NCBI GenBank assembly: GCA_009692765.1
Contig: SHYQ01000008.1
Coordinates: 1-32,249 of the forward strand
Length of the DNA: 32,249 nt
From: Dehalococcoidia bacterium
GTDB taxonomy: Bacteria; Chloroflexota; Dehalococcoidia; UBA2979
Reading direction: 5' to 3'
Shown: piece by piece, positions 3,634 through 23,151 of the stretch
Numbering within the stretch: the first letter of the stretch is position 1
Layout of the letters: every line of letters begins with the position of its first letter
The notes under the pieces: model-generated
What the model was told of the DNA's origin: nothing
The model's input: only the letters and a program-made list of their open reading frames with translations
Databases searched by the model: none
Position numbers and translations under genes: made by a program

Positions 3634-3753
3634 ATGCGGCTGCTTCTGGCGATGGCGATCGGCCTCGCGATCGGCGCTGGGGTGGCCGTCCTCGTCGCCT
3701 CGCGCCCGGCGCGGTCGCCGATCCACGGCGCAGACGAGGGAGGCGAGCGATGA
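3634..3753 (+). CDS. Small single-pass membrane peptide (39 aa)
   Basis: A short gene with strong support. The ATG at 3634 follows GGAGG (3623-3627) at six bases. The product starts MRLLLAMAIGLAIGAG, forming one hydrophobic segment (about residues 2-22), followed by a short polar tail. Its stop overlaps the ATG of the c-di-AMP receptor gene (ATGA at 3750-3753), which implies translational coupling. A possible -10 box TACCCT lies at 3593-3598. It has no recognisable family. It may be a membrane partner or anchor for the downstream protein, but this is inference from the operon only. It could also simply be a leader peptide. Confidence 0.7.
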   Translation: MRLLLAMAIGLAIGAGVAVLVASRPARSPIHGADEGGER

Positions 3754-4109
3754 CCACAGCGAGGCCGGCGCGCGAGGCGCCGACGAAGCTCGTCATGATG
3801 ATCGTGTCCGACACGGACGACGAGGCGCTCATGTACGCGCTGGTCCAGAGCGGCTACTCCGCCACGAAGGTCGGCTCCACCGGCGGATTCCTCCGCCGCG
3901 GCAGCGTCACGATCTACTGCGGCGTCGCAGCCGCGGAGGTCGACGCCGTGGTCGCCATGGTGCGCGAGATCTGCCGCGCCCGCCGCGAGTTCGTCCCGAT
4001 CCCGGCGGCCCTCGCCGAGGAGGGCGGCTTCACCGCCGAGCCGATCGAGGTGCGCACCGGCGGCGCGATCGTCTTCGTCCTCGACATCGACCGCTTCGAG
4101 CGGCTGTAG
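3750..4109 (+). CDS. darA: Cyclic-di-AMP receptor, PII-like (DarA/PstA family)
   Basis: A 119-residue member of the DUF970/CdAR family, trimeric PII-like proteins that bind c-di-AMP in Firmicutes. The family core is clear: ATKVGSTGGFLRRGSVT (38-54) aligns with the ligand-binding loop of S. aureus PstA, and the C-terminal PIEVRTGGAIVFVLDIDRF matches its last strands. The Asn that follows the LR-x-G of the loop in PstA is Ser52 here, so ligand affinity could differ. The first 11 residues are extra. GGGAGG (3738-3743) lies six bases before the ATG, which overlaps the stop of the membrane peptide gene. It converges on the HD-GYP gene with 27 bases between the stops. Confidence 0.9.
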   Translation: MTTARPAREAPTKLVMMIVSDTDDEALMYALVQSGYSATKVGSTGGFLRRGSVTIYCGVAAAEVDAVVAMVREICRARREFVPIPAALAEEGGFTAEPIEVRTGGAIVFVLDIDRFERL

Positions 4110-4121
4110 CAGTGCAGCGCG

Positions 4122-4145
4122 AGCCTAGCCGGCAGCCTAGCCGGC
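4122..4145. repeat. 12-bp perfect tandem duplication over a stop codon
   Basis: AGCCTAGCCGGC occurs twice in a row (4122-4133 and 4134-4145). The second copy carries the TAG stop of the HD-GYP gene (4137-4139, minus strand). The first copy supplies a second in-frame TAG twelve bases on. Confidence 0.85.
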
Positions 4146-5393
4146 GGCCTCGACCTCGACATCGCTGGTGAGCAGGCGCAACGCGTCCGGCAGGACATCC
4201 GTCGAGGTGGGGTCGAACTGCTGGCCGGCCCCGACCTGGAGCATCGCCACCGCCTCCGACGCGGAGAACGCGGGCCGGTAGGGCCGCTCCGCCCGCAGCG
4301 CCCAGTACGCGTCCGCCACCGCGAGGATGCGCGGCGGCAGCGGAAGCTCCTCGATCGTCAGCAGCGCGGGGTAGCCTCGCCCGTCCGGACGCTCGTGGTG
4401 GGCCCCGATCCAGGAGGCGACCTCGTCGAAGCCGGACGCGCCCTCGAGCATCGTGGCGCCGAGGGTCGGGTGGCGGCGCATCAACTCCATCTCGTCCACC
4501 GTGAGGATCGTCGGCTTGTCGGTGATCTGCCGCGGCACGCCCAGCTGGCCGATGTCGAGCAGGTAGCCGGCGATACCGATCGCGTCGCAGTAGGCAGGCG
4601 TGAGGCCCTGGCACACCGCGAGCTGGCGCGCGAGCGCGGCCACCCGCGCGGCCCGGCCGGGCTCACGCACGGCAGCGTCGATGATCTCGCCCATCGCCGC
4701 CGCGAGCTGGTCGACGCGGCGGCGCGACGGCCGTCCCTCCGCGACCCCCGCCTGTCCGAGCAGGCGCGGCAGATCCTCGTGCGAGAGCCCGAGCCACGTC
4801 GTGTCGTCGCGGAGCGTGGCGACCATCGCGGCAGCGATCTCCGGCCCCACGAGGGGCTCGATGTCCTTGATGCCCGCCGCCTGCAACTGCGCGCGCGCGC
4901 GCAGGGGGCTCGGCGCGCCGGCGGCGAACTCGCACGCCCAGTGCGCGGCGCCGACCAGCAGGCCCTCGATCGGCACGTCCGTGCCGGAGCGCCCGTCGGG
5001 GCGGCCCCGCCCGTCCCAGCGCTCGTGCGCGGCGCGGATGCCGTCGCTCACCGCCTCGTCGAGGCCGAAGCGGTCCGCCACCCACGCGCCGCCCCCCAGC
5101 GGGCCGCGCGTGGCGCGCACGGCGATGCCGGCGTCGTGCAACAGGCCGACGTAGATCACGCGGCGGCGCTCCTCCGGGCCGAAGCCGAGGCGCTCCGCGA
5201 CCGCCTGCGCAAGGTACGCCACCCGCGCGGCGTGCCCGCTCTCCTCCTGCTCAGCGAGGTCAAACCCGCCGCTGAGGTAGGCCAGGAGCTCCAGCCGGCG
5301 CACCGGCCGCAACACGGTATTCCGCGCGATCGAGGCGAGCTCGGTCACGGGTCCGCCGAGTTCGGCGACACTCACCGCGTCGTCCATGGCCAT
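4137..5393 (-). CDS. Tandem HD/HD-GYP domain protein
   Basis: A 418-residue protein with two HD-superfamily halves. The HD-GYP family hydrolyses cyclic dinucleotides, classically c-di-GMP. Half 1 (about 50-160) keeps H54 and the HD pair H86-D87, but its GYP-like motif reads AHERWDGRGRP (122-132). Half 2 (about 240-400) has a textbook HHERPDGRGYP (332-342) and a conserved HP at 308-309, but its HD pair is L279-D280 and its first metal His is Arg248. No half has a complete metal set, so the protein may have a composite site or be a non-enzymatic sensor. No signal peptide or membrane segment is seen. It lies 243 bases downstream of the FmdB gene on the same strand. Start chosen at ATG 5393; ATG 5387 is an alternative. 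Confidence 0.9.
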   Translation of the reverse strand: MAMDDAVSVAELGGPVTELASIARNTVLRPVRRLELLAYLSGGFDLAEQEESGHAARVAYLAQAVAERLGFGPEERRRVIYVGLLHDAGIAVRATRGPLGGGAWVADRFGLDEAVSDGIRAAHERWDGRGRPDGRSGTDVPIEGLLVGAAHWACEFAAGAPSPLRARAQLQAAGIKDIEPLVGPEIAAAMVATLRDDTTWLGLSHEDLPRLLGQAGVAEGRPSRRRVDQLAAAMGEIIDAAVREPGRAARVAALARQLAVCQGLTPAYCDAIGIAGYLLDIGQLGVPRQITDKPTILTVDEMELMRRHPTLGATMLEGASGFDEVASWIGAHHERPDGRGYPALLTIEELPLPPRILAVADAYWALRAERPYRPAFSASEAVAMLQVGAGQQFDPTSTDVLPDALRLLTSDVEVEAAG

Positions 5394-7393: not shown

Positions 7394-7704
7394 GAGGGGG
7401 ACCCTCACCCCCGGCCCCTCTCCCGCTTCGCGGGAGAGGGGAGACGGAAAGGGGTAGGGATGGCTGCGCCCCAACCCCCCGCAGGACGCGCACAACGGGC
7501 GCGCCCGCCGGGCGCGGCTTGGTGCGCCCTCACCCTGCCCTCTCCCACTGACGTGGGCGAGGGTTCTGATCTGCGTTCGAGGCGCGCCTGCCGCGCGCCG
7601 TTCCGCCGGGAGCGCGAAGGGCGCAGCCCCCTCGCATCACCCTGGTGCCTTCTCCTCACCTCTCCCGCTTCGCGGGAGAGGTGCCGGGGGTGAGGGTCCC
7701 CCTC
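7394..7704. repeat. MITE-like palindromic element B (311 bp) with 22-bp perfect terminal inverted repeats
   Basis: This occupies half of the 619-base gap between rnhB and ftsH. Left end 7394-7415 (GAGGGGGACCCTCACC...) is the exact reverse complement of 7683-7704. Each end is followed inward by a CTCTCCCGCTTCGCGGGAGAG hairpin, so near-identity continues to about 48 bp. The interior (7524-7642) is present in inverted orientation in element E. No open reading frame in it looks like a gene. No obvious target-site duplication is seen. The flanks (7322-7393 and 7705-7940) hold no recognisable gene; a TACACT box at 7817-7822 is a weak candidate -10 for ftsH. Confidence 0.85.
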
Positions 7705-10004: not shown

Positions 10005-10406
10005 GGCGGCCCCTCTCCCGGCCCCTCCCCTGCGCGGGGAGGGGGGTCAGCAAGGGGAGATCCCCCATCCCCCCGGCCCCCTTCCCTCCGGGAAGGGGGA
10101 GGTCGCCGCGGCGCTGCGCGCGTTCACCATCCCAGGCGCTCCCCACGCGTTCGTTCGCTGGCGTCTCGGCCCGCCTCCGCCGGGAGCGCGAGGGGCGCAG
10201 CCCGCTCGCATCTCTTGCTGCTTCCCTGGCGGGAAGGGGGCTTTCGGATCTCGGCGTGCGCCTGCCGCGCCCGCCTCCGCCGGGAGCGCGACGGGGCGCA
10301 GTCCGCTCGCATCTCTTGCTGCTTCTGACTCCCTCTCCTGCGAAGCGGGAGAGGGGCCGGGGGTGAGGGTTCTCCCTCCCGCGCAGGGAGGGGGGAGGGG
10401 GCCGCC
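10005..10406. repeat. Interspersed palindromic element C (~400 bp) with an internal direct repeat
   Basis: This fills the 517-base gap between ftsH and the dedA-like gene, and no gene is seen in it. GGCGGCCCC at the left end is mirrored by GGGGCCGCC at the right. Inside are several CCCCTCCCC-loop-GGGGAGGGG palindromes. A 55-bp block starting CCCGCCTCCGCCGGGAGCGC occurs twice in direct orientation (10170-10224 and 10270-10325), differing at only a few positions. The module GGGAGCGCGAGGGGCGCAGCCC is shared with elements B, D and E. Confidence 0.8.
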
Positions 10407-14541: not shown

Positions 14542-14789
14542 GGCGGCCCACCCCCTGCCCCCTCCCTGCGCGGGAGGGGGTTCAAGAAGGAGAAAGGTAA
14601 TGCGAGGGGGCTGCGCCCCTCGCGCTCCCAGCGGAACGCGCGCGGCAGGCGCGCGATCCGAGGCGGAGCGCGAGGCCGCGCGATCCGAAAGCCCCCTTCC
14701 CGCGAGGGAAGGGGGTTGGGGGATGGGCGAAATCTCATTCTGATGTCAGACCCCCTCCCGCGCAGGGAGGGGGTAGGGGGTGGGCCGCC
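14542..14789. repeat. MITE-like element D (248 bp) with 39-bp terminal inverted repeats
   Basis: This occupies the 401-base gap before hisI, and no gene is seen in it. The left end 14542-14580 (starting GGCGGCCCACCCCCTGCCCC) is the reverse complement of 14751-14789 with a single mismatch. The interior contains the TGCGAGGGGGCTGCGCCCC module and the GCGCGCGGCAGGCGCGC module shared with elements B and E, plus another CCCCCTTCCC-loop-GGGAAGGGGG palindrome (about 14693-14714). No target-site duplication is obvious. Confidence 0.88.

Positions 14790-17665: not shown

Positions 17666-17669
<4 letters not shown>
17651..17669 (+). promoter_or_regulatory. Leaderless promoter/start block of the GH10 pseudogene
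   Basis: A -10-like TATCCT (17654-17659) lies six bases before the ATG at 17666, so transcription would begin at or next to the A of ATG. No Shine-Dalgarno is present. The 19 bases 17651-17669 are identical to 19190-19208 in front of ligA. No good -35 is seen. Confidence 0.5.
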
Positions 17670-21301
<3,632 letters not shown>

Positions 21302-22885: not shown

Positions 22886-22940
22886 GAACGGGCCACGCGC
22901 GCGCCGCGTCGAGGTCACATCTCGCATCGAGCACTCCGGG

Positions 22941-23151
22941 GGCGGCCACCCCCTGCCCCTTCCTGCGCGGGAAGGGAACCCTCACCCCCGGCCCCTCTCC
23001 CGCTCCGCGGGAGAGGGGAGGAGAAGGCAGCAGGGTGATGCGAGGGGGCTGCGCCCCTCGCGCTCCCGGCGGAACGGCGCGCGGCAGGCGCGCCTCGAAC
23101 GCAGATCAGAATCCTCGCCCACGGCAGTGGGAGCGGGCAGGGTAAGGGCGC
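22941..23151. repeat. Interspersed palindromic element E
   Basis: This fills much of the 377-base gap between the VIT gene and rodA, and no gene is seen in it. It starts with GGCGGCCACCCCCTGCCCC (like element D), then a CCCTCACCCCCGGCCCCTCT hairpin (like A and B). Bases 23033-23151 are the reverse complement of 7524-7642 in element B, with the same 119-base length and about five mismatches. Some element-like sequence may continue to about 23200. Confidence 0.85.

Follow-up and report, generated by a model that had tools for sequence, protein, structure and literature searches.

What becomes of a phosphodiesterase domain when it is present twice in one protein and its metal ligands are divided between the two copies? 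This question is raised by a gene in the 32,249-nucleotide stretch of Dehalococcoidia DNA analysed here (the window). The preliminary description had placed the gene at positions 4137-5393, and translation returns exactly these coordinates and this frame, yielding 418 residues from the minus strand. The product comprises two Pfam HD_5 stretches (score 145.4 bits, cut-off 27.2; whole-protein E 1.8e-42) and no other domains. The relevant features are as follows:

4137-5393, minus strand: tandem HD-GYP protein with complementary metal-ligand loss, 418 aa (translation; Pfam HD_5 twice; AlphaFold2 pLDDT 93.0, pTM 0.89)
4914-5306, minus strand: half 1, residues 30-160, with H54, H86-D87, P98, A122-H123, GRP at 130-132 and H151-W152 (alignments; half-1-only model)
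4179-4718, minus strand: half 2, residues 226-405, with R247, L279-D280, Q283, H308, H332-H333, GYP at 340-342, D361, R370 and R373 (alignments; Foldseek)
3750-4109, plus strand: DarA-type cyclic-di-AMP receptor gene, convergent neighbour (Pfam CdAMP_rec 3.5e-30)

The protein has an HD_5 match above the cut-off and, in half 2, the GYP motif of HD-GYP phosphodiesterases, but neither half holds the full H...HD...H...HH...D set within a single domain. Residue equivalents, numbered after PmGH, were obtained from protein alignments and the published PmGH scheme (PMC4159591). In half 1, H54 corresponds to H189, H86-D87 to H221-D222, P98 to H250, A122-H123 to H276-H277, R131 to Y285, and H151 to D305. 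Three ligands are missing from this half: P98 and A122 stand in for two of them, and H151 is found where the terminal Asp is expected. In half 2, R247 corresponds to H189, L279-D280 to H221-D222, Q283 to K225, H308 to H250, H332-H333 to H276-H277, Y341 to Y285, D361 to D305, R370 to R314, and R373 to K317; this half lacks two metal ligands (R247, L279) and the catalytic Lys (Q283). The translation bears out what had been described at first, namely the H86-D87 pair with a GRP in half 1 and, in half 2, a preserved HHERPDGRGYP (332-342) with L279-D280 in the place of HD and R247 in that of the first His. All of the losses listed then are real, although the list was too short: it omitted A122, P98 and H151 in half 1 and the lack of the catalytic Lys in both halves. 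The latter residue (K225 in PmGH) is missing from both halves in all 57 class sequences.

Of the 44 genomes in the window's own family, 21 carry the tandem gene; in the class as a whole, 74 of 393 genomes give a hit at E <= 1e-32, of which at least four cover a single domain. A search of 400 phylum-wide genomes returned eight hits at E <= 1e-35, every one within the window's class, and public records of close relatives are titled Chloroflexi and Dehalococcoidia. The alignment and tree set assembles 57 tandem proteins (20 from the family and 37 from the rest of the class) and one outgroup, 58 in all; genome content was assessed by family searches. The division of metal ligands between the halves, already proposed from the single sequence, is conserved among the 20 family sequences. 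In half 1, H54 and H86 are found in 20/20 and D87 in 18/20 (A in two), while position 98 is a His in 14/20 and H123 is kept in 16/20. The first His of HH is found in none of them (T, S, V or A occupy its place), and the His at the ligand-Asp position, H151, and the adjacent W152 are each present in 20/20. Outside the family, H54, H86, D87, the H250-type His and H123 of half 1 occur in 37/37 sequences, the first His of HH in 33/37 and the Asp in 36/37. In half 2 of the family, R247 is found in 19/20 (H in one), D280 in 19/20 and Q283 in 17/20, and the His of HD is always replaced (0/20; L, A, I or M). H308, H332, H333, Y341, D361, R370 and R373 are each present in 20/20, and the c-di-GMP-contact positions R370, R373 and Y341 are also kept in 37/37 sequences outside the family. 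Position 279 in these 37 is His in 19, Q in 13, L in two, N in two and R in one.

The 58-sequence tree, computed without the ligand columns, gathers the window's family into one clade with a support of 100. Counted as the fewest changes needed, the equivalents of H189, H221 and D222 changed 0, 1 and 1 times in half 1 versus 10, 13 and 8 times in half 2 (totals 2 vs 31), and those of H250, H276 and H277 changed 6, 8 and 4 times in half 1 versus never in half 2 (totals 18 vs 0). This asymmetry between the halves gives a Fisher value of 7e-12, treating changes as independent. The counts point to many episodes of decay or rebuilding on the HD side of half 2 throughout the class, while the loss of the HH side in half 1 took place for the most part within the window's family. 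Orthologs with full motifs in one domain, which the preliminary description had named as evidence against its reading, are absent from the family and present in distant families, in half 1. Most members of clade f33 (loci among L074-L095) carry all metal ligands in half 1 and R...QD...E in half 2; in f16 (loci among L057-L064), both halves are nearly complete.

Such reciprocity invites the reading of a composite active site, combining the H and HD of half 1 with the H250, HH and D equivalents of half 2. Exactly these two ligand sets are frozen across the class (0-1 changes per position) while the reciprocal sets vary. The predicted structures point in another direction. The full-length AlphaFold2 model (58 sequences) reaches a pLDDT of 93.0 and a pTM of 0.89, and half 1 modelled alone (residues 25-222) a pLDDT of 92.9 and a pTM of 0.91. 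For the full-length model, Foldseek ranks V-cGAP3 (5z7c) first, with a TM of 0.65 over 426 columns, followed by PA4781, PmGH and DvhD with alignments of approximately one domain. For half 1 alone, 5z7c (TM 0.79) is followed by DvhD, PA4781 and PmGH, and half 2 matches 4r8z_A with a TMt of 0.74 and an rmsd of 3.1. Each half of the predicted models superposes on single HD-GYP domains, so a separate HD bundle with a separate site is predicted for each, half 1 having a complete helix set even by itself. A composite site also leaves unexplained why half 1 has its own H250, HH and Asp equivalents in 33-37 of the 37 non-family sequences, a near-complete set that a shared site would not need. In view of the fold predictions and of the complete half 1 in other families, the interdomain site put forward in the preliminary description is not supported, and we regard it as most unlikely.

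The replacements are neither chance nor drift: they are near-fixed in the 20 family sequences; the gene is under purifying selection; its paralogs are intact in most cases. Whole-gene dN/dS between close pairs ranges from 0.04 to 0.42 and is low in both halves (NG86; some dS near saturation). Among other HD-GYP domains sampled from family genomes, 16/18 possess the full H, HD, H, HH, D set; the two non-intact paralogs are L129 (RD for HD) and L131 (AD for HD). Intact paralogs and purifying selection together imply that the degeneracy is largely specific to the tandem gene, and maintained. A dying gene in decay is ruled out by the dN/dS values and the invariant new residues, and a lineage-wide loss of HD-GYP ligands by the 16 intact domains. 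L131 (G000:C62:8960-9349) is the second HD_5 protein of the window's genome; since it is degenerate too, this incomplete MAG yielded no intact HD-GYP.

The conserved ligand losses, combined with the retention of nucleotide-contact residues, make a catalytically dead sensor, one of the options first proposed, the best reading. The protein is rather likely a cytosolic tandem HD-GYP pseudo-phosphodiesterase that has lost hydrolysis and acts as a receptor or regulator in a c-di-GMP network. In PmGH, the H221A, D222A, H250A, H276A, H277A and K225A substitutions essentially abolish activity; R314, K317 and the Tyr of GYP touch c-di-GMP and are dispensable for catalysis; and the mononuclear-Fe form binds c-di-GMP and leaves it uncut (PMC4159591). 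The HD-GYP domain of DvhD, devoid of key metal ligands, likewise binds c-di-GMP but does not hydrolyse it (PMC13090378). In the window protein, half 2 retains the face that binds cyclic dinucleotides (the Tyr of GYP, the Arg of RPY and the basic residue that follows) together with the His cluster specific to HD-GYP domains (H308, H332 and H333 with D280/D361), but the two His of its HD-side metal site have given way to R247 and L279, and the catalytic Lys is replaced as well. By analogy, it resembles mononuclear-Fe PmGH, with the nucleotide face and HH side kept and the HD side and Lys gone, and would hold c-di-GMP uncut at a single-metal or metal-free site. Compared with a DvhD-type receptor, the ligand loss is partial; R370, R373 and Y341 are kept and the Lys of HDxGK is gone. 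Half 1, which keeps the HD-side ligands H54, H86 and D87, places the invariant H151 in lieu of the Asp and has a shortened substrate ‘claw’ loop, is most likely a remodelled HD domain of the mononuclear type, through which the state of half 2 would be regulated or passed on. As the protein has no output domain, the signal would pass via protein contact.

Against a dead receptor, HD-GYP proteins tolerate some ligand loss: RpfG has a Phe for H189, and PmGH D305A shows residual activity (PMC4159591). Mononuclear HD phosphatases work with an H...HD...D site (PMC8177086), which the H54-H86-D87-H151 set of half 1 resembles, with His for Asp; these four residues could still coordinate a metal and support mononuclear hydrolysis. 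One half may still be an enzyme: half 1 could serve as a hydrolase of the mononuclear type (H...HD...His), or half 2 could work slowly as a phosphodiesterase with one metal, the other half being regulatory as in V-cGAP3. The constancy of H54, H86, H151-W152 and, to a lesser degree, D87 in the family and the retention of nearly all half 1 ligands outside it are consistent with such an activity, which we nevertheless consider possible rather than probable: D87 is missing in two orthologs, the stretch from HD to the next ligand position in half 1 is reduced to about 11 residues, and half 2 has no equivalents of H189, H221 and K225, while the loss of H221 or K225 alone inactivates PmGH.

If the protein is a receptor, its neighbourhood bears on the nucleotide that it binds. 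The DarA-type gene ends 27 bases from the stop of the tandem gene, on the opposite strand. This convergent DarA is found at 15/20 family loci, with in addition one partial copy at the end of a contig and another interrupted by an in-frame stop, and beside the tandem gene in members of several other families, some of them devoid of the other window neighbours nearby. The interrupted copy (L101, G019:C286:20434-20757) contains an in-frame TAG and is intact in the sister genome G033; G019 and G033 are also the two genomes without D87 in half 1. The linkage between the tandem gene and DarA is conserved, though they do not form one operon and each can occur alone: clade f33 has the tandem gene and gave no DarA hit, and in ten genomes of the family DarA is present but a full tandem gene is not. 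With a c-di-AMP receptor gene as the conserved neighbour, the protein might bind a nucleotide other than c-di-GMP, and it could be a c-di-AMP-binding HD partner of DarA, the more so as a DAC cyclase is found in 38/44 family genomes. This is improbable in our view, considering the convergent arrangement, the occurrence of either gene alone, and the fact that the presence of the tandem gene follows GGDEF instead. The GGDEF counts speak for the c-di-GMP receptor reading: GGDEF cyclases occur in 73/74 genomes with the tandem gene vs 169/319 without it (Fisher p 2e-16, uncorrected for relatedness) and, by genus within the family, in 9/9 with vs 1/8 without (p 4e-4, relatedness ignored), a co-occurrence that is confounded by common ancestry. 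The sole exception among the 74 is the window's own MAG (75.6% complete), in which no GGDEF match was found. Both messengers would be accommodated by a two-site cyclic-dinucleotide integrator, each half retaining a different single-metal part of the HD-GYP centre: half 2 would sense c-di-GMP, and half 1, through its invariant His, a metal or a second nucleotide, possibly c-di-AMP together with DarA. We hold this to be quite improbable; if true, one soluble protein would couple two second-messenger systems in Dehalococcoidia.

A functional tie to the FmdB, YraN and RNase HII neighbours was rejected, as these are linked by synteny only and are mostly absent in other families. The Rfam, promoter and terminator scans gave no matches. 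Elsewhere in the window, a family 10 glycosyl hydrolase (PF00331; 17666-19000, plus strand) begins its match at profile position 66, and its likely lipoprotein N-terminus lies in another frame (17666-18052), which suggests a frameshift in the gene or the assembly. Dispersed intergenic G+C-rich repeats of several families, with palindromic cores of the CCTCTCCCGC..GCGGGAGAGG type, are located at 999-1450, 7402-7702, 10176-10401, 14551-14780 and 22922-23099.

Among GGDEF-EAL proteins, inactive receptors are familiar (LapD, for instance), but inactive HD-GYP receptors are only now being documented (DvhD, 2026). V-cGAP3 already provides a precedent for the tandem architecture, and DvhD for an inactive HD-GYP receptor; the reciprocal ligand pattern, the fixed Asp-to-His change and the lineage distribution were not found in the open-access literature, in which a search for HD-GYP and Chloroflexi gave nothing. 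The orthologs form a natural series within one gene, in which half 1 goes from a complete to a partial ligand set and the HD side of half 2 is repeatedly rebuilt with Arg, Lys, Gln or Leu. They provide natural mutants for asking which metal site c-di-GMP binding requires and which its cleavage, and, in a phylum about which little is known, the putative pseudo-phosphodiesterase would be a possible c-di-GMP effector.

Among known systems, the tandem HD-[HD-GYP] phosphodiesterase V-cGAP3 of Vibrio cholerae (PDB 5z7c) shares the tandem HD domains, with a similar length and topology. It is the best PDB match both by sequence (E 7e-31) and by the fold comparisons above, and its half 1 also reads GRP in the sequence alignment. 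The catalytic half of V-cGAP3 is half 2. Its half 1 is degenerate, with KD and with neither HH nor the Asp, and its half 2 has HD, HH, GYP and D, whereas in the window protein half 2 has lost the H and the His of HD, both of which half 1 possesses. The window protein therefore shows the order of an N-terminal HD followed by an HD-GYP and the 5z7c fold, but not the intact catalytic C-terminal HD-GYP paired with a degenerate N-terminal HD. The trinuclear phosphodiesterase PmGH (PDB 4mcw) provides the reference H...HD...H...HH...D set and GYP as well as a fold match; neither half of the window protein has this full set or K225. Bd1817 (PDB 3tm8) is likewise an unconventional, degenerate HD-GYP that is inactive on c-di-GMP (PMC8177086), but it keeps a diiron site, carries Asn in the position of the last Asp, shows a degraded GYP and contains one HD-GYP domain. 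DvhD (PDB 9rbz, 9rc0) shares the HD-GYP fold, the loss of metal ligands and the preserved nucleotide face, and is a high-ranked match for both halves. It is a membrane-bound protein in which a single HD-GYP that has lost its HH pair accompanies PAS and dCache domains (PMC13090378), whereas the window protein consists of two HD domains and no others, the second of which keeps both HH and GYP.
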